Assembly: GCA_029224465.1 (NCBI GenBank) | Contig: JAQXUQ010000002.1 | Span: forward strand, 1-64,000 | Origin: Bacillota bacterium | Lineage (GTDB): Bacteria > Bacillota > Clostridia > Lachnospirales > Lachnospiraceae | DNA length: 64,000 bases | Direction of reading: 5' to 3' | Program-made: the position numbers and the translations under genes | Notes under the pieces: generated by a model | What the model saw: the letters and a program-made list of their open reading frames with translations, nothing else | Databases searched by the model: none | Told to the model about the DNA's origin: nothing | Part shown: positions 1-50,135 of the stretch, piece by piece | How the letters are laid out: each line of letters begins with the position of its first letter | How positions within the stretch are numbered: the first letter of the stretch is position 1

Positions 1-1874
1 ACACCACCGTGCGTACCGTTCGGTACACGGCGGTTTCAACAGTTGACGTGCACAGACTGATATGCTGCGGCTAGATCACAAAAGCCCCAGCGTATCAGTC
101 TTTCTTTTGTTAAGGCTGTCTTAACCACACCTGTGTTCGCCATTCGCCAGTATGCTTTCCGGCTGTAGGCGCCTACACAGGCTGCCCATTCGGGCAGGCC
201 CAGCCCCATCAGCTTGCGTTTGCGCGTCCGTGGCAGTTTCCACTGTTTCCAGATGCACATCCGTACGCGTCTGTACAGCCAGCCGTTCAGGTCGGCGATG
301 TTTCTCTTCATGTCTGCTATACCGTAGTAATTCAGCCATCCGCGCGCAGAAACTTCTATTCGCTTCATAGCCGCTACTATGCTTCCGCATTTACTCCGGG
401 AAGTGAGCATACGCAGTTTCTCCTTGAACTTCTTCCATGACTTCGCATGGACACGAACGTATACTCCGTTCTTGCCTTTCCCGAAACAGAAGCCAAGGTA
501 CTTAAAATTTCGGATCGCAAACACGCTGACCGTTCTGCTTTTCTCCCGATTCACCTTCAATTTCAAGGTTCCTTCAAGATACTTCACGCTGGATTCCAAA
601 AGCCTCTGCGATGCCCGTTCACTCTTTGCCAGCAGCACGATGTCGTCTGCGTAGCGGATGCATGGCACCCCTCGTCTTCTGAATTCCTGGTCAAATTCGT
701 TCAGATAGACGTTCGCGAGCAATGGCGAAAGATTTCCGCCCTGCGGGGAACCTTCTTCTGTCGGAACTACAACACCGTCTTCCATTACTCCACTCTTCAG
801 ATAACGCTTGATCAGCTGGATTACCCTCTCGTCTTTGACGCTCTGTCTCAGAAGATTGAGCAGTTTCACATGGTTGATCGTGTCGAAATATTTGGAGAGG
901 TCAAGAACAACTGCCCTTGTGTATCCCTGTTCCGCATACTCCTTTATCTTCCGAATGGCATCCTTCGCACTTCTTCCCGGACGGTAGCCGTAGCTTCCGT
1001 CTGAGAACAGCGGTTCATAGATGGGCATCAGCTGCTGTGCTATTGCCTGCTGGATGATACGGTCGATCACCGTCGGAATACCAAGCTTACGTACTCCGCC
1101 GTCCGGCTTTGGGATCTCTTTGCGTCTCACGGGTGACGGAGCGTAATGGCCGCTCCTTATCCTCGCTATAAGTTCGCTCTGATGTTCCTTCAGCCATGGA
1201 AGCGCGCCCTCTATGGTCATCCCATCGACTCCGGGCGCCCCCTTATTTGCCTTCACTCTCTTGTAGGCACGGTTAAGGTTATCCTTATCCAGTATCCTTC
1301 CGAGAATGTCCGGCTCTGCACTGTTCCTTTCCTTCCATATCCGGTTGAAAGAGCGGTGCGCTCTCACATGCCCTTTGCGTTCCGCGCTATCTCTTTGTGA
1401 GCAGCCGTCATTGCTGACGTTTTCTGTACCCATTCGCTCTTTCCTCCTTTCCGGGTCGTACTTGGAACTCCTGTTGATTCAGCCCTTCACGGCCATGCCG
1501 CTACTATGGCCTCTGCTGACTCCTGTGCGTTCAGCACTGCTTTTGGCGGTGTTTACTCCTTTCAGAGCGTACCGCACAGGTCTCCCCGGGTACCACACGT
1601 TTCTTTCCCTCCATCTGCCTGTCTCATCTATGCCCGCTGGTTCCGTGTAGTTATCGGGCTTCGGCTTGTATGGCAGTCTCACCCTCAGCGAATACCTTAT
1701 ATGAGATTTCTGTACGTCAGGCCGGAGGTTTGCCCTCGGGTTAGTAGGTTCCCCGAATCCGGCTTCCTTCAGATTCCACCTCACGATGGACACCCTTGCC
1801 TTCGGCTGTATCCTTCCCACTACCGGGCGGATTCCGGACTTTCACCGGTTAGAAACGTGCGCCGCCGGGCGCAC
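1..1874 (-). mobile_element. Group II intron, 3' end beyond the window
   Basis: The minus strand starts at 1874 with GTGCGCC, the usual 5' end of a bacterial group II intron. About 440 bases of structured RNA (domains I to III) follow, then the maturase reading frame (domain IV). Positions 1 to about 33 form a recognisable domain V: CCGCCGTG pairs with CACGGTGG, and TACC pairs with GGTA, with a two-base CG bulge and a GAAC loop. Domain VI and the 3' splice site lie outside the window. The 5' exon ends TTATTTTTATG, directly after a terminator hairpin. Insertion behind terminators is typical of bacterial class C introns, but the class was not established here. The element is a retrotransposing ribozyme and appears intact as far as it can be seen. 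Confidence 0.9.
36..1433 (-). CDS. ltrA: Group II intron reverse transcriptase/maturase
   Basis: This 465-residue protein is encoded inside the intron and serves its splicing and reverse transcription. The reverse transcriptase domain fills the first two thirds, with the PKPDGGVRKLGIPTVIDR block, the SPQGGNLSPLLANVYL block and the catalytic YADD motif. A maturase (X/GIIM) domain follows, visible as LNGWLYRRVRMCIWKQWK. No HNH endonuclease domain follows the maturase part, so target priming probably relies on replication-fork or other primers, as for other endonuclease-less intron proteins. The stop codon lies three bases before the start of domain V. The frame has no internal stop or frameshift. 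The symbol ltrA is the generic family name. Confidence 0.93.
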   Translation of the reverse strand: MGTENVSNDGCSQRDSAERKGHVRAHRSFNRIWKERNSAEPDILGRILDKDNLNRAYKRVKANKGAPGVDGMTIEGALPWLKEHQSELIARIRSGHYAPSPVRRKEIPKPDGGVRKLGIPTVIDRIIQQAIAQQLMPIYEPLFSDGSYGYRPGRSAKDAIRKIKEYAEQGYTRAVVLDLSKYFDTINHVKLLNLLRQSVKDERVIQLIKRYLKSGVMEDGVVVPTEEGSPQGGNLSPLLANVYLNEFDQEFRRRGVPCIRYADDIVLLAKSERASQRLLESSVKYLEGTLKLKVNREKSRTVSVFAIRNFKYLGFCFGKGKNGVYVRVHAKSWKKFKEKLRMLTSRSKCGSIVAAMKRIEVSARGWLNYYGIADMKRNIADLNGWLYRRVRMCIWKQWKLPRTRKRKLMGLGLPEWAACVGAYSRKAYWRMANTGVVKTALTKERLIRWGFCDLAAAYQSVHVNC

Positions 1875-1921
1875 CATAAAAATAAGGACTTCAGACCGAT
1901 CATCCGACGGATCTGAAGTCC
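1875..1921 (-). terminator. Intrinsic terminator of the upstream RNA; intron insertion site
   Basis: GGACTTCAGA (1886-1895) pairs perfectly with TCTGAAGTCC (1912-1921), with a further CCG/CGG extension next to a one-base bulge. On the minus strand the stem is followed by TTATTTTTATG, and the intron begins at the next base. It is therefore both a terminator and the 5' exon of the group II intron. Confidence 0.8.
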
Positions 1922-2315
1922 CTATCTATGCGAAATTTCCAATGGACTGAACCTCTCTTTCCTAAAATCTATTCAGTTGTACCTTGCAGGTCCTTTCTGT
2001 ACCTGCTGCCAGCCTCGTCAATGCCTTCTGCATATCCCTCACGGATGATGCCTTTCGGTATGACTCTGTTCGATCTTACCTTCGTTTCTCGTCGAATTCA
2101 GCTGCTTCTTCATTTACCGGATTATGGATCTTTGGACCTCAAGTCTTTGTTGGAGTGTACCCCCTTCCTGCAGATTCTCCATCTTCGTCTTTGTAGATCT
2201 GTGGAACTTACCTAGCCGATTGGAGTTTACCATCCTTTCTTCTGTATCTCTCCTGCTTCCTTTCTCGTCAGAAGAGGAGGAACCTTTGGATTTACGATTG
2301 GTATTTCCTTTTCTT
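1878..2315 (-). ncRNA. Candidate structured non-coding RNA of about 430 nt, family not recognised
   Basis: A near-consensus promoter (2322-2350) and a strong terminator (1886-1921) on the same strand delimit this interval. No reading frame in it looks like a protein. The minus-strand RNA is purine-rich and full of pairings. GCAGGT/ACCTGC closes ACAGAAAGG near 1979-2000. ACTGAA/TTCAGT forms a stem nearby. GTCA/TGAC encloses CATCATCC, a GTGA loop and GGGATATG near 2016-2063. TCTTCTG/CAGAAGA pairs over a longer distance near the 5' end. It does not show the signature sequences of RNase P RNA, tmRNA, 6S RNA or SRP RNA. Large structured RNAs of the ROOL or OLE kind are possible comparisons, but no homology is claimed. 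Confidence 0.6.
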
Positions 2316-2321
2316 GACTTT

Positions 2322-2350
2322 AATATATCAGCGGGCAGACATATTGTCAA
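2322..2350 (-). promoter_or_regulatory. Strong sigma-A promoter for the non-coding RNA
   Basis: On the minus strand TTGACA (2345-2350) is separated by exactly 17 bases from TATATT (2322-2327). TGA precedes the -10 box, which gives an extended -10 element. Transcription should start near 2315. Confidence 0.75.
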
Positions 2351-2445
2351 TATATTTCATTTCTAAATATGTATTGTCTGTTTATTCGTAATATTATGGC
2401 TTATTCTGTAAACAATAGATAGTGTATGATCTTGGTAATATGCCA

Positions 2446-2534: not shown

Positions 2535-4742
2535 TTATCTGTTTTTTTCTGCCACCCTGTACTTAAGGATCAGGATTCCTGTTCCACCGGCAGCCGCTGC
2601 CATCAGAAGAAGCCAGAGCATCATATTGCTCTTATCGCCGGTCTGTATGCGGGCAGGACTTGCCGGTGCAACGCTTTCAGTTGCTGTCGGAACTGAGGCT
2701 GCCGGAGCTGATATTTCCGGTTTTACTGTGGGTATAATAACCTTTTCCGGATTAGATGATACCGGACTATCCTGGGAAGTACTCTCAGAAGGCTTTGTTT
2801 CTGCCACCTTAACGCTGTAACTAACCGTCGGCCGAAGAAAATCCTCATCAGATTCTGTTATGCCGTTGGAATCCACCGGGTGGAGTACTGTCTTTGTTGT
2901 TACACGTAAGGCTTCCTTCCCTTGTTCTCCGAATTCATCATACTCACCGTAGGTGCCGGCGGCTGATTTCGGATTTACAAGTGTTAGTCTGTAATTCAGG
3001 CGGAGACGTTCAAAATTGGTTACGTTTTCATTTGTTTTCCACGTAAAGTGCTCGTCTGCCTTTTTCTCGCCCGGAACATAGGTTACCTCAAAACGGTAAG
3101 TACCATCATTCTTTTTCCCGAAGCCGAAATGGTTATCTGTGATTTTCTCCGCCGTCAGTGTCTGCTCATTTCCATTTGCATCCAACACAACCATGGTCAT
3201 GTCTTCTGGCTTTTTCAAATCGAAATCATAGTCATTATCGACAAAACCTATAGCGTCTTCGATCGTGCTGCCTTTCCCAAGCATATAGACAAGCTGATTT
3301 TTGATGCGGTCAAAGTCCGCTGCAGCACTTCCATTCAAATATTTCATAAAGGCCGGATGACCACCATCGGATTGATTCAGGCTCTGCACCGCCACGGAAT
3401 AACAGTGATATTTCGAAGCCAGTTCATGGTAGGTGTTTGCGGCTTGCAGGAAAGCCATATCAATATTGCTGGCGGTCCTTGGTTCTCCTGGCATGGTCTT
3501 GAACCCGTCATTCGCAATCTGGTCTGGTGTCATGCTTTGCCAGTCATCATAATACTTCCATTCAAAGTCATAGGCATCGCCATTGCTTTCGGTGTTCCTG
3601 GCGGCAACATCCTTTAAGTATGCATTCCAGGAATCCTGATCACTTGTTACAGGTCTTCCCACATTGTTGTCATAGGGTGTGCTTGGCTTATACCAGCTCT
3701 CATCATAAAATCCACCATAAGCGTTTCCCCCGGCATTTTGAACAGGAATAAACGAACGGGAATACGCCACGGTGTAATCATCATTCTTGCAGTGGAGATA
3801 TGTGTCTCCATCTGATACAAGGATCATGTACTTGCGGCTGTCAGGAATATCTGTATTGCGTGCAAGAACTTCCTTTGCCGCCAGAAGGCCGGCATGCAGA
3901 TTTGTACCGCCGCCATTCTGCTTGGCAAATTCTTTCTGAATCTCGTCATACTGTGTGGCAAGATCAAAGGATCCGTGATCGTGTCCTGTGCGGTTAAACT
4001 CAATAATATCGACCTGCACACCGGCTCCGGTCTTCTCGGCAGCAGTTTTCAGTTCAGCAAGCAGGCTCATTGCCTTTTCCTTTGTATCGGAAAAACTGGA
4101 TTTATCCAAGACAAAACAGACTTCGCTTGCAAGCTTCACCTCCGCTGAAGGGAGCGTCAATGTCACATTTGTCTCATACTGTTCACCCATCTGTGATGCA
4201 CGGATAGACTTTTTGTAATCCCACTGCGCGGCAGGGTATTCGGCAAATGTTTCATTGGAGATATTTGCCGCGGATGCTTCTTCCGTTTTTTCCGTTTCCG
4301 GGTCTGCTTCATCTGCCTGCTCCGGTTTCTCCGTCGGATCAACGACAGAAGCCTTTGCGGACGCCGGAGTCGTTTCATCTGTGAGAGCATCTCCGTTTAT
4401 CTGATCGTCAATCTCTGCCATGGACTCCGACGCTTTTGAATCATCAGACGACGGTTCACCTGCTGCCGGATCATCTGACGGCGCTGCGTCTGTTTTGCCT
4501 GTAGTATTGTCAGACGCACCGGTATCCGATCCTGTTTCAGGCACTTCTGGTACAGACTTTTCTTCATCAGAAGTAATATCCAAATTTCCGGATGCCTCTG
4601 AAGAAGTCACAATATTTTCAGCCGGTTCCACAGGTGTTGTTTCTTCTGCTCTTGTTGTCACCGGGACAGCAGTTGCAATAAGCAGACAACTTAGCGCTAT
4701 ACCAAGGCACATATTCAGGAACCGTTTTCCTTTCAATTTCAT
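2535..4742 (-). CDS. Cell-surface VWA-domain protein with C-terminal anchor signal
   Basis: This 735-residue secreted protein probably works in adhesion or surface interaction. A signal peptide (basic KLKGKR, then a hydrophobic run to about residue 32) leads into an acidic, Ser/Thr/Glu/Pro-rich stalk (33-165) and a von Willebrand A domain (about 200-465). The metal-ion site is partly kept: D213 and S215 of the DxSxS motif, T280 in GGGTNLHAG and D311 in LVSDGD. The last Ser of DxSxS is replaced by F217. The C terminus has the layout of a sortase substrate: a TGD-containing motif (about 699-703), a hydrophobic segment (707-726) and a basic tail. The motif is IQTGD rather than classic LPxTG. The start is supported by GAGGGGGAT before the ATG. 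Ligand and sortase are unknown. Confidence 0.8.
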   Translation of the reverse strand: MKLKGKRFLNMCLGIALSCLLIATAVPVTTRAEETTPVEPAENIVTSSEASGNLDITSDEEKSVPEVPETGSDTGASDNTTGKTDAAPSDDPAAGEPSSDDSKASESMAEIDDQINGDALTDETTPASAKASVVDPTEKPEQADEADPETEKTEEASAANISNETFAEYPAAQWDYKKSIRASQMGEQYETNVTLTLPSAEVKLASEVCFVLDKSSFSDTKEKAMSLLAELKTAAEKTGAGVQVDIIEFNRTGHDHGSFDLATQYDEIQKEFAKQNGGGTNLHAGLLAAKEVLARNTDIPDSRKYMILVSDGDTYLHCKNDDYTVAYSRSFIPVQNAGGNAYGGFYDESWYKPSTPYDNNVGRPVTSDQDSWNAYLKDVAARNTESNGDAYDFEWKYYDDWQSMTPDQIANDGFKTMPGEPRTASNIDMAFLQAANTYHELASKYHCYSVAVQSLNQSDGGHPAFMKYLNGSAAADFDRIKNQLVYMLGKGSTIEDAIGFVDNDYDFDLKKPEDMTMVVLDANGNEQTLTAEKITDNHFGFGKKNDGTYRFEVTYVPGEKKADEHFTWKTNENVTNFERLRLNYRLTLVNPKSAAGTYGEYDEFGEQGKEALRVTTKTVLHPVDSNGITESDEDFLRPTVSYSVKVAETKPSESTSQDSPVSSNPEKVIIPTVKPEISAPAASVPTATESVAPASPARIQTGDKSNMMLWLLLMAAAAGGTGILILKYRVAEKNR

Positions 4743-49535: not shown

Positions 49536-49606
49536 GCGGGTGTAGTTCAGTGGTAGAACACCAGCCTTCCAAGCTGGATATGTGGGTTCGATTCCCATCA
49601 CCCGCT
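49536..49606 (+). tRNA. tRNA-Gly (TCC)
   Basis: Seventy-one bases fold into a cloverleaf with acceptor GCGGGTG/CACCCGC, anticodon TCC in CTTCCAA and GGTTCGATTCC in the T arm. CCA is not encoded. First gene of the cluster. Confidence 0.96.
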
Positions 49607-49611
49607 TTTAT

Positions 49612-49685
49612 GTGTCCGTAGCTCAGCTGGATAGAGCATCGGCCTTCTAAGCCGAGGGTCTGGGGTTCGAATCCCCACGGGCACA
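49612..49685 (+). tRNA. tRNA-Arg (TCT)
   Basis: Seventy-four bases, acceptor GTGTCCG/CGGGCAC with one G-T pair, anticodon loop CTTCTAA reading TCT, T arm GGGTTCGAATCCC-like. CCA is not encoded. It follows tRNA-Gly by five bases. Confidence 0.96.
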
Positions 49686-49740
49686 CGGATTACGGATCGT
49701 AATCAACACCACAGATACAACCTAGTTTGTATCGCAGCAT

Positions 49741-49815
49741 GGTGGGTATGGCGTAGTTGGCTAACGCGCCAGATTGTGGTTCTGGAGATCGTGGGTTCGA
49801 GCCCCACTACCCACC
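49741..49815 (+). tRNA. tRNA-His (GTG)
   Basis: Acceptor GTGGGTA/TACCCAC, anticodon GTG in ATTGTGGT. The extra 5' G at 49741 can pair with the discriminator C at 49815, the identity element of tRNA-His. CCA is not encoded. Confidence 0.95.
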
Positions 49816-49834
49816 CTTATATGCAGCATCGCAT

Positions 49835-49906
49835 TGGGCTATCGCCAAGTGGTAAGGCACAGCACTTTGACTGCTGTATTCGCCGGTTCGAATCCGGCTA
49901 GCCCAG
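49835..49906 (+). tRNA. tRNA-Gln (TTG)
   Basis: Seventy-two bases, acceptor TGGGCTA/TAGCCCA, anticodon TTG in CTTTGAC, discriminator G. The weak first base pair (T-A) is typical of tRNA-Gln. CCA is not encoded. Confidence 0.95.
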
Positions 49907-49909
49907 TTC

Positions 49910-49982
49910 GGGCGATTAGCTCAGGTGGTAGAGCACTTGACTTTTAATCAAGTTGTCGCGGGTTCGAGTCCCGCATCGCTCA
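49910..49982 (+). tRNA. tRNA-Lys (TTT)
   Basis: Seventy-three bases, acceptor GGGCGAT/ATCGCTC with one G-T pair, anticodon TTT in CTTTTAA, discriminator A. CCA is not encoded. A terminator follows. Confidence 0.96.
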
Positions 49983-49992
49983 TGAGGATGTA

Positions 49993-50028
49993 GGCTCTCT
50001 GAAAACGCCATGTTTTCAGAGAGCCTTT
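49993..50028 (+). terminator. Terminator within the tRNA cluster
   Basis: GGCTCTCTGAAAAC and GTTTTCAGAGAGCC form a perfect 14-base stem with a five-base loop, then TTTAA. The T tract is short, so some transcripts may continue into tRNA-Leu. Confidence 0.75.
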
Positions 50029-50053
50029 AACAATTCCATAATCGCATGTATAT

Positions 50054-50135
50054 GCAGTTGTGGCGAAACTGGTAGACGCGCAGGATTTAGGTTCCTGTCT
50101 CCCGAGAGGTGAGGGTTCGAGTCCCTTCAACTGCA
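50054..50135 (+). tRNA. tRNA-Leu (TAG)
   Basis: Eighty-two bases with a long variable arm (class II), acceptor GCAGTTG/CAACTGC, anticodon TAG in ATTTAGG. CCA is not encoded. No separate promoter was recognised. Confidence 0.95.

Follow-up and report, generated by a model that had tools for sequence, protein, structure and literature searches.

The window analysed in this work is a 64,000-nucleotide stretch of Lachnospiraceae DNA. Near its beginning, on the minus strand, lies a probable RNA gene; the RNA family to which it belongs occurs in Lachnospiraceae and has apparently not been described. A transcript of ∼430 nt is predicted, bounded by a promoter (2350-2322) and a terminator (about 1923-1879). 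The features recognised at the locus, in the direction of transcription, are:

2371..2393, minus strand: upstream element TATTACGAATAAACAGACAATAC, before the −35 box; similar stretches were seen by eye in the genus
2322..2350, minus strand: promoter TTGACA-17-TATATT with an extended −10 TG (TTGACA 2350-2345, TATATT 2327-2322; 11/12 consensus matches)
2247..2281, minus strand: hairpin with loop GACGAGAAA (loop 2269-2261), with covariation among relatives
2212..2238, minus strand: repeat unit 1, AAAGGAUGGUAAACUCCA AUC GGC UAG (E value 2.4e-7 with model R1, which this unit helped to build)
2139..2167, minus strand: repeat unit 2, AAGGGGGUACACUCCA ACA AAG ACU UGA (E value 4.4e-9 with R1, which this unit also helped to build)
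1922..1960, minus strand: terminal unit, with Shine-Dalgarno AAAGAGAGGU (1960-1951), then UCAGUCCA, then a mini-ORF (1942-1922)
1879..1923, minus strand: intrinsic terminator formed by a hairpin and a T-run, whose foot is overlapped by the stop of the mini-ORF
1..1874, minus strand: group II intron, 5′ end GTGCGCCC at 1874, reaching the contig end; outside the RNA gene

The promoter and the strong terminator had both been proposed in the original prediction, and both were borne out. The terminator can be recognised both from the letters themselves and from the predicted fold; a simple terminator scan did not list it, in our opinion because its stem is interrupted. A loose promoter-like site is not rare in this DNA, since a scan with a 9-of-12 threshold rendered 7 sites in 6 kb where 5.7 would be expected. 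Another genome of the genus (G029, locus L010) carries the same RNA gene, intron-free and with 95% identity. The two copies differ at 24 positions over the gene (the alignment additionally counts 13 overhanging bases), of which 14 fall in 2090-2021; the first hairpin and 1958-1922 hold one each, and units 1 and 2 hold none, unit 1 being unchanged over 49 nt (2238-2190) and unit 2 over 51 nt (2168-2118). The promoter is retained, changes being confined to the spacer (2340, 2339, 2337) and to a position beyond the −10 (2320). Conservation is seen in short modules of Shine-Dalgarno and stop and in one mini-ORF that is apparently translated, and not in a big fold.

Beyond position 1875 the G029 copy continues into other sequence instead of the intron. 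Since that copy is intron-free, the terminator is part of the RNA gene itself, and the intron was inserted separately, immediately behind the T-run. The intron matches Rfam families RF02001 (1790-1595) and RF01998 (1555-1482), and its reverse transcriptase ORF (1433-36, minus strand) matches RVT_1 and GIIM, the group II maturase domain. We take class C introns to be those that insert behind intrinsic terminators, and such a placement was seen by eye in the window and at seven other sites: the intron 5′ end GTGCGCCCGG lay behind terminator-like inverted repeats at the seven inspected of eight other genome matches (L002-L008), several of them at contig ends and some with a weak T-run. At two of these (L004, L007) the intron 5′ end behind the repeat was limited to roughly its first 20-30 nt, and other sequence came next. 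Upstream of the RNA gene, a large protein is encoded at 2535-4742 (minus strand). It matches von Willebrand A weakly (25.9 bits, cut-off 27), its C-terminus looks anchor-like by eye, and it has a relative at the same place in G029, where the RNA gene adjoins this related surface-protein gene. Elsewhere in the window, Rfam identified a cluster of six tRNA genes (49536-50135, plus strand).

The original prediction saw no plausible protein in the transcript. Long proteins are indeed absent, but the 3′ mini-ORF had been overlooked, and nothing had been said of the two repeat units, of the six codons of that mini-ORF at the terminator or of the group II intron downstream. A 78-codon frame is present at 2350-2114, which is not a long convincing ORF. 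Across 137 array loci, once shadowed ORFs were removed, no sense ORF of at least 110 codons spanned the array, and the 14 ORFs that overlapped arrays were all antisense. A protein gene, intact or decayed, was discarded because the arrays of relatives retain no sense ORF; a match to a decayed gene had been named at the outset as a possible refutation of the RNA gene.

At least five supportable stems had also been proposed, and here support was found only for the terminator and for the hairpin at 2281-2247. The full 441 nt folded with a z-score of −2.39 relative to shuffles, a value that comes mostly from the terminator, since without it the z-score was −0.37 and 35/100 shuffles folded as well. 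Among relatives, 13 hairpins with the GACGAGAAA loop showed changes on both sides at 8/8 stem pairs, with 90.6% of cells paired and a covariation score reached by 0/500 shuffles; these hairpins were picked by hand, partly for possessing a stem. The 9-mer itself had 37 distinct occurrences in array loci, 22 of them with a stem of at least 5 pairs. The hairpin is present in some RNAs only, mostly in the genus of the window, and this one short class is the only structure shown to covary. Readings as a T-loop, as a sarcin-ricin-like loop or as the target site of a toxin were weighed by eye and set aside.

Comparison of the family members defined the repeat unit as AAAGGAGGUACRGWCCR, a codon, 1-3 further codons and a stop, in 1 to 11 copies per RNA; the spacing is that of a Shine-Dalgarno AAAGGAGGU, 9 nt, the next codon and then the stop. 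Plain similarity searches rendered mostly short matches within the genus (11/62 genomes at E 0.01, some by chance). A sequence-only model, R1, was built with 13 units from seven genomes. At E 0.1 it detected the family in 25/62 genomes of the genus, the seven source genomes included, and in 16/26 of the good genomes; it is incomplete at this threshold, as the RNA gene of G073 (L232) was missed. It also brought to light a second gene of this kind in the genome of the window (L082, G000:C8:26649; E 1.1e-6), which had not been used for the model and which lies downstream of a gene matching serine hydroxymethyltransferase. When one genome per genus of the Lachnospiraceae was sampled, R1 gave matches at E 0.01 in 10/200, the window's own genome included; the nine other loci all had two or more units, with 11 in L076. 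A strict two-unit pattern was found in 29/299 Lachnospiraceae genomes of a separately drawn sample, against 2/299 for the reversed-pattern control; five of the 29 positives (G014, G129, G187, G244, G258) had been seen earlier, and the pattern underestimates the family, since it missed the window's own genome. In a sample of the class, the same pattern was found in 0/291 genomes, 281 of them outside the family Lachnospiraceae.

A scan of named genomes, whose species may overlap with those of the 299-genome sample, rendered at least 120 stretches. Among the 80 matches listed, 57 name Lachnospiraceae or a genus placed there (Roseburia, Blautia, Anaerobutyricum hallii, Butyrivibrio, Pseudobutyrivibrio, Anaerostipes and others, which we take to belong to this family), and most of the remainder carry unspecific Clostridia or Eubacterium names. 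Four listed matches came from clearly unrelated groups (two Bacteroidetes, Syntrophorhabdus and Cellulomonas), and no promoter was found with them. Arrays were present in the cultured species Roseburia inulinivorans, Anaerobutyricum hallii and Blautia wexlerae. Four loci (L013, L018, L019, L033) were left out as chance matches in coding sequence, judged by eye, and L024 and L025 were not among the loci inspected. Some genomes hold two family RNA genes close together, as at L098 (G070:C27:3000-6000) and in G014:C42 (near 32.4 kb and 40.8 kb), a sign of duplication. Variants of ∼0.7-0.9 kb also occur (L060-L062, and L083 and L084 in G009 and G007), with three units only and long, unassigned segments between them.

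The comparison with Rfam that had been suggested at the outset gave no match of the window RNA to any family (4227 families, gathering threshold). With E values up to 10, the stretch 1800-2520 had only three sub-threshold miRNA or snoRNA matches (best E 0.18). When 13 loci of the genus were compared with E values up to 1, two sub-threshold matches appeared, both off the arrays (Clostridiales-1 on the other strand of L012 beyond the array, and a miRNA elsewhere in L015). A further 12 loci, from other genera, had none at the gathering threshold. Searches of phage and plasmid records by blastn, with the window RNA and with a Blautia wexlerae array, gave no match, and the two-unit pattern had three matches in viral contigs, all of which resembled phage coding sequence by eye. 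A phage or plasmid element was set aside because these collections held no convincing match. No such RNA was recognised in searches of open-access papers; the novelty of the family is based on Rfam 15 and on this literature result.

The distance between each Shine-Dalgarno and the stop that follows it was analysed in 359 non-redundant units, collected with a regular expression that made no demand on the sequence after CCR and required a second core within 120 nt. Three loci (L101-L103) were excluded from this set, as well as from the last-unit counts, the mini-ORF list and the pairing test described below. The first stop in the Shine-Dalgarno frame was at codon index 2 in 33 units, at index 3 in 233 and at index 5 in 46. 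The Shine-Dalgarno frame had a stop within four codons in 268 units, and the other frames in 86 and 18. All three stop codons were used: the 331 first stops at index 1-6 comprised 256 UAA, 39 UGA and 36 UAG. Among the 324 units with no earlier stop, index 3 was occupied by UAA in 210, UGA in 12 and UAG in 11; some triplets were nearly missing (UAC 1, UAU 2, UCA 0, CAA 0, UGG 0), and other sense triplets were present (such as UUA 17, GAA 12, GUA 11 and AAA 7). Because related units inflate these counts, the frame test was repeated with the 52 units of the 299-genome sample. An early stop (within four codons) was found in the Shine-Dalgarno frame of 43 units, and in 16 and 2 for the other frames; shuffles rendered a mean of 12.2 and a maximum of 22 in 2000 runs. 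The early in-frame stop was absent in 9/52. With one unit per genome, the values for the three frames were 22, 9 and 1 of 29, with a shuffle maximum of 15. The position of the A in GGAGGU (position 2) was an A in 95% of units, though the search had left it free.

The codon that follows the spacer is often not one that could start translation. In the 359 units it was AUG in 114, CCA in 79, AAG in 56, CCG in 33, AUC in 21, ACA in 19 and UUG in 12; AUG, UUG, GUG or CUG stood there in 129/359, and other codons in 230/359 (about two thirds). The 230 non-start units were not enriched in upstream in-frame starts (52 in frame 0, and 61 and 39 in the others), which argues against their being translated from upstream starts. 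Frame-locked stops behind non-start codons are the main puzzle of this family, and a decoding role for the non-start units is unexplained. The complementarity of the unit to 16S rRNA is presumed from the general 16S sequence, since the 16S 3′ end was not found in the window's own assembly. Open Shine-Dalgarno sites were considered, and the opposite was predicted: their G residues had a mean unpaired probability of 0.24, compared with 0.40 for other Gs, and were predicted to be the more paired in 120/135 RNAs.

The terminal unit often departs from this pattern. In the window, a degenerate unit is followed by UUG GAA AUU UCG CAU AGA UAG (1942-1922, minus strand), specifying MEISHR, and the sole difference in G029 within 1958-1922 replaces the stop codon UAG by UAA. 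A degenerate last unit in which UUG, AUG or GUG opens 5-10 codons was present in 28/62 distinct arrays with a terminator; in 27/28 the stop of this frame was located between −6 and +8 nt from the terminator stem, compared with 10 and 5 for the other frames. Not all arrays end in this way: that of L076, with its 11 units, finishes in CCA GAA ACU UAA before the terminator and has no start-codon mini-ORF. In 45 strictly chained arrays, a start codon was present in 20/45 last strict units and in 45/133 internal units, the strict-chain expression overlooking degenerate last units. An Asp or Glu was the second residue of 62/69 last mini-ORFs; these 69 had been selected for a start codon and for a stop near the stem, so both of those features are present by construction. 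MDSIV was found in 12 entries with 7 spellings, and MDEIV in 6 entries with 5 spellings; the spellings differed only synonymously (GAC/GAT, AGC/AGT, GAA/GAG, GTT/GTA/GTG) or in the stop used, and MDSIV was present in three different genera sampled (G136, G181, G228). The isoleucine codon was AUA in 18/18 MDSIV and MDEIV entries, amid neighbouring codons that vary synonymously. The coding signature of the last frame is well supported by these comparisons, which constitute good evidence that this frame, where present, is translated.

The promoter was also a common property of the arrays. In 87/113 arrays a TTGAC[AT]-N16..18-TANNNT pair preceded the first unit pair by no more than 250 nt, against 15/1774 (0.8%) for random windows taken from the same loci and strand; with a looser scan, some pair was found in 103/120. 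Ahead of the −35 box, several RNA genes of the genus have, by eye, TTACGAA...ACAGACAAT-like stretches, and the element TTACGAATAAACAGACAAT (2371-2393, minus strand) recurs among them; it may be the binding site of a shared activator. In other genera the region above the −35 box looked A/T-rich.

The genes next to the RNA genes belong to families that differ between loci. Seven loci (L127, L135, L140, L155, L168, L221, L223) were left out of this comparison as chance matches; L135 has stops at index 1 and 2. All of these except L168 were also left out of the last-unit/terminator count and of the pairing prediction. Those confirmed with Pfam were serine hydroxymethyltransferase and SecA pieces; for a third neighbour, read as enolase, the piece tested had no Pfam match. 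The nearest downstream ORF was in the sense orientation in 59/125 loci and antisense in 66/125 (29 and 50, respectively, when counted by distinct neighbour family). An attenuator acting on the downstream gene was discarded given this orientation. Since both neighbour families and downstream orientation vary, the RNA gene stands alone and resembles neither a leader or attenuator nor one partner of a toxin-antitoxin system. Relatives that have diverged and occupy unrelated loci share promoter, units and terminator. They make the RNA gene family well supported, and together with the lack of an Rfam match they agree with the part of the original prediction that spoke of an RNA gene of an undescribed class; the suggestion of a ROOL or OLE kind of RNA did not hold, as there was no covariance-model match and folding without the terminator was not in excess.

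Sequence comparisons show the family and its unit, stops locked to one frame, signs of coding in the last mini-ORF and a hairpin class with a fixed loop on a changing stem; from these we infer a function for the RNA. Our preferred explanation, held tentatively and at somewhat less than even odds, is that of a stand-alone, strongly promoted RNA made of minimal translation units, which would work as a ribosome-engaging decoy with a translated 3′ mini-ORF. This reading is favoured because the stops keep the register of a ribosome positioned at the Shine-Dalgarno, and because the last frame looks translated. The units would engage ribosomal small subunits through the Shine-Dalgarno; AUG units would be translated into di- or tripeptides, while non-AUG units might hold 30S subunits without initiation, so that the RNA may act as a decoy, either a translation sink or a sensor. 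The last ribosome would finish at the 3′ end of the RNA, with the mini-ORF stop at the foot of the terminator. The wider proposal of a new bacterial RNA class, in which tandem minimal translation units capture ribosomes or initiation complexes and are often closed by a terminator-joined mini-ORF, and which would amount to a dedicated decoy for ribosomes or sensor of translation in a single dominant group of gut bacteria, is possible and is put forward with rather more reserve. Small-subunit titration, peptidyl-tRNA drop-off, which minigenes are described as causing in PMC8708949, nuclease protection and translation reporting would all be compatible with the sequence, which does not distinguish among them. 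The non-start codons, the arrays lacking a last mini-ORF and the paired Gs of the units stand against a ribosome-engaging function.

The main rival is a sponge that would take up either an RNA-binding protein or small RNAs carrying an anti-Shine-Dalgarno seed, GGAGGUACRGWCC being the putative binding site. This reading, which we consider rather unlikely though deserving of attention, is consistent with the variable unit number (1 to 11 per RNA), with a core, GUACRGWCC, that exceeds what a Shine-Dalgarno needs, with a GACGAGAAA loop on changing stems that resembles a binding site, with the predicted pairing of the unit Gs, and with arrays such as L076 whose last unit has no start codon. CsrB/RsmZ-type sponge RNAs likewise carry many copies of a short GGA-containing site in varying number. 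The RNAs described here share the repeated GGA-containing site and the variable copy number, but their unit is longer and obeys a reading-frame rule, and the last one often has a mini-ORF. A sponge would leave unexplained both the stops of all three kinds in one frame and the coding signature of the last mini-ORF. Moreover, the core is not common as an mRNA leader: exact AGGTACRGWCCRWTG had 27 matches in 62 genomes. Ten of these, not previously known as arrays, were inspected and corresponded to three RNA genes, five other coding stretches and, in two cases, the ribosome-binding site of a single gene that has class II (D, K, N) tRNA-synthetase domains (L230 and L240, with the unit core GAAGGTACAGACCGATG). 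A common mRNA leader motif was set aside since no gene family was found.

A messenger for a tiny formyl peptide of 5-10 residues (MDSIV and relatives), its translation tuned by the upstream units, would account for the synonymous changes and for the acidic second residue across several genera. It is nonetheless improbable: the peptides are diverse (MDSIV, LDIIEQY, LDNEQQ, LEISHR) and much too short for a signal peptide, neighbour gene families vary, and some arrays have no mini-ORF. Less probable still is that the Shine-Dalgarno units merely stabilise the RNA through bound ribosomes, the hairpin or another segment doing the work. According to work cited in PMC8708949, a six-codon mini-ORF Shine-Dalgarno with bound ribosomes shields mRNA from RNase E; yet short forms of the RNA, such as L011 with one unit, a last unit and a terminator, leave little else to do the work. 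A large ornate RNA of the ROOL/GOLLD/OLE kind, to which the length, promoter, terminator and ∼0.7-0.9 kb variants (L060-L062, L083, L084) might point, or a decayed protein gene, is largely refuted by the Rfam result, the z-score of −0.37 and the absence of a sense ORF, and retains hardly any credit.

Among known systems, the ribosome-engaging reading finds a close parallel in lambda bar-type minigenes, which consist of a Shine-Dalgarno, a start codon, one or a few codons and a stop. The units described here have likewise a properly spaced Shine-Dalgarno and an early in-frame stop, but they form arrays inside a stand-alone terminated RNA that has no downstream gene in constant orientation, and about two thirds of them lack a start codon. 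Type III toxin-antitoxin RNAs (ToxI and relatives) also have tandem repeats followed by a terminator; in the present case this arrangement is not accompanied by a constant downstream gene (59 sense and 66 antisense in 125 loci). Like ROOL, GOLLD and OLE, the RNA is long, lacks a long ORF and has a strong promoter, but it has no Rfam-model match and no large conserved fold. Regulatory minigenes are reported for axe-txe and for the LEE4 leader in PMC8708949.

This design of RNA gene, with a near-consensus promoter, has no counterpart in Rfam 15. In the gut and rumen, Lachnospiraceae rank with the most common bacteria, and the proposals made here can be tested in the cultured array carriers Roseburia inulinivorans, Anaerobutyricum hallii and Blautia wexlerae. 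If the units do not engage ribosomes, the frame-locked stops behind non-start codons become a sharp puzzle. If they do, the RNA would represent a novel kind of trans-acting translational regulator; to our knowledge, no such regulator has been described.
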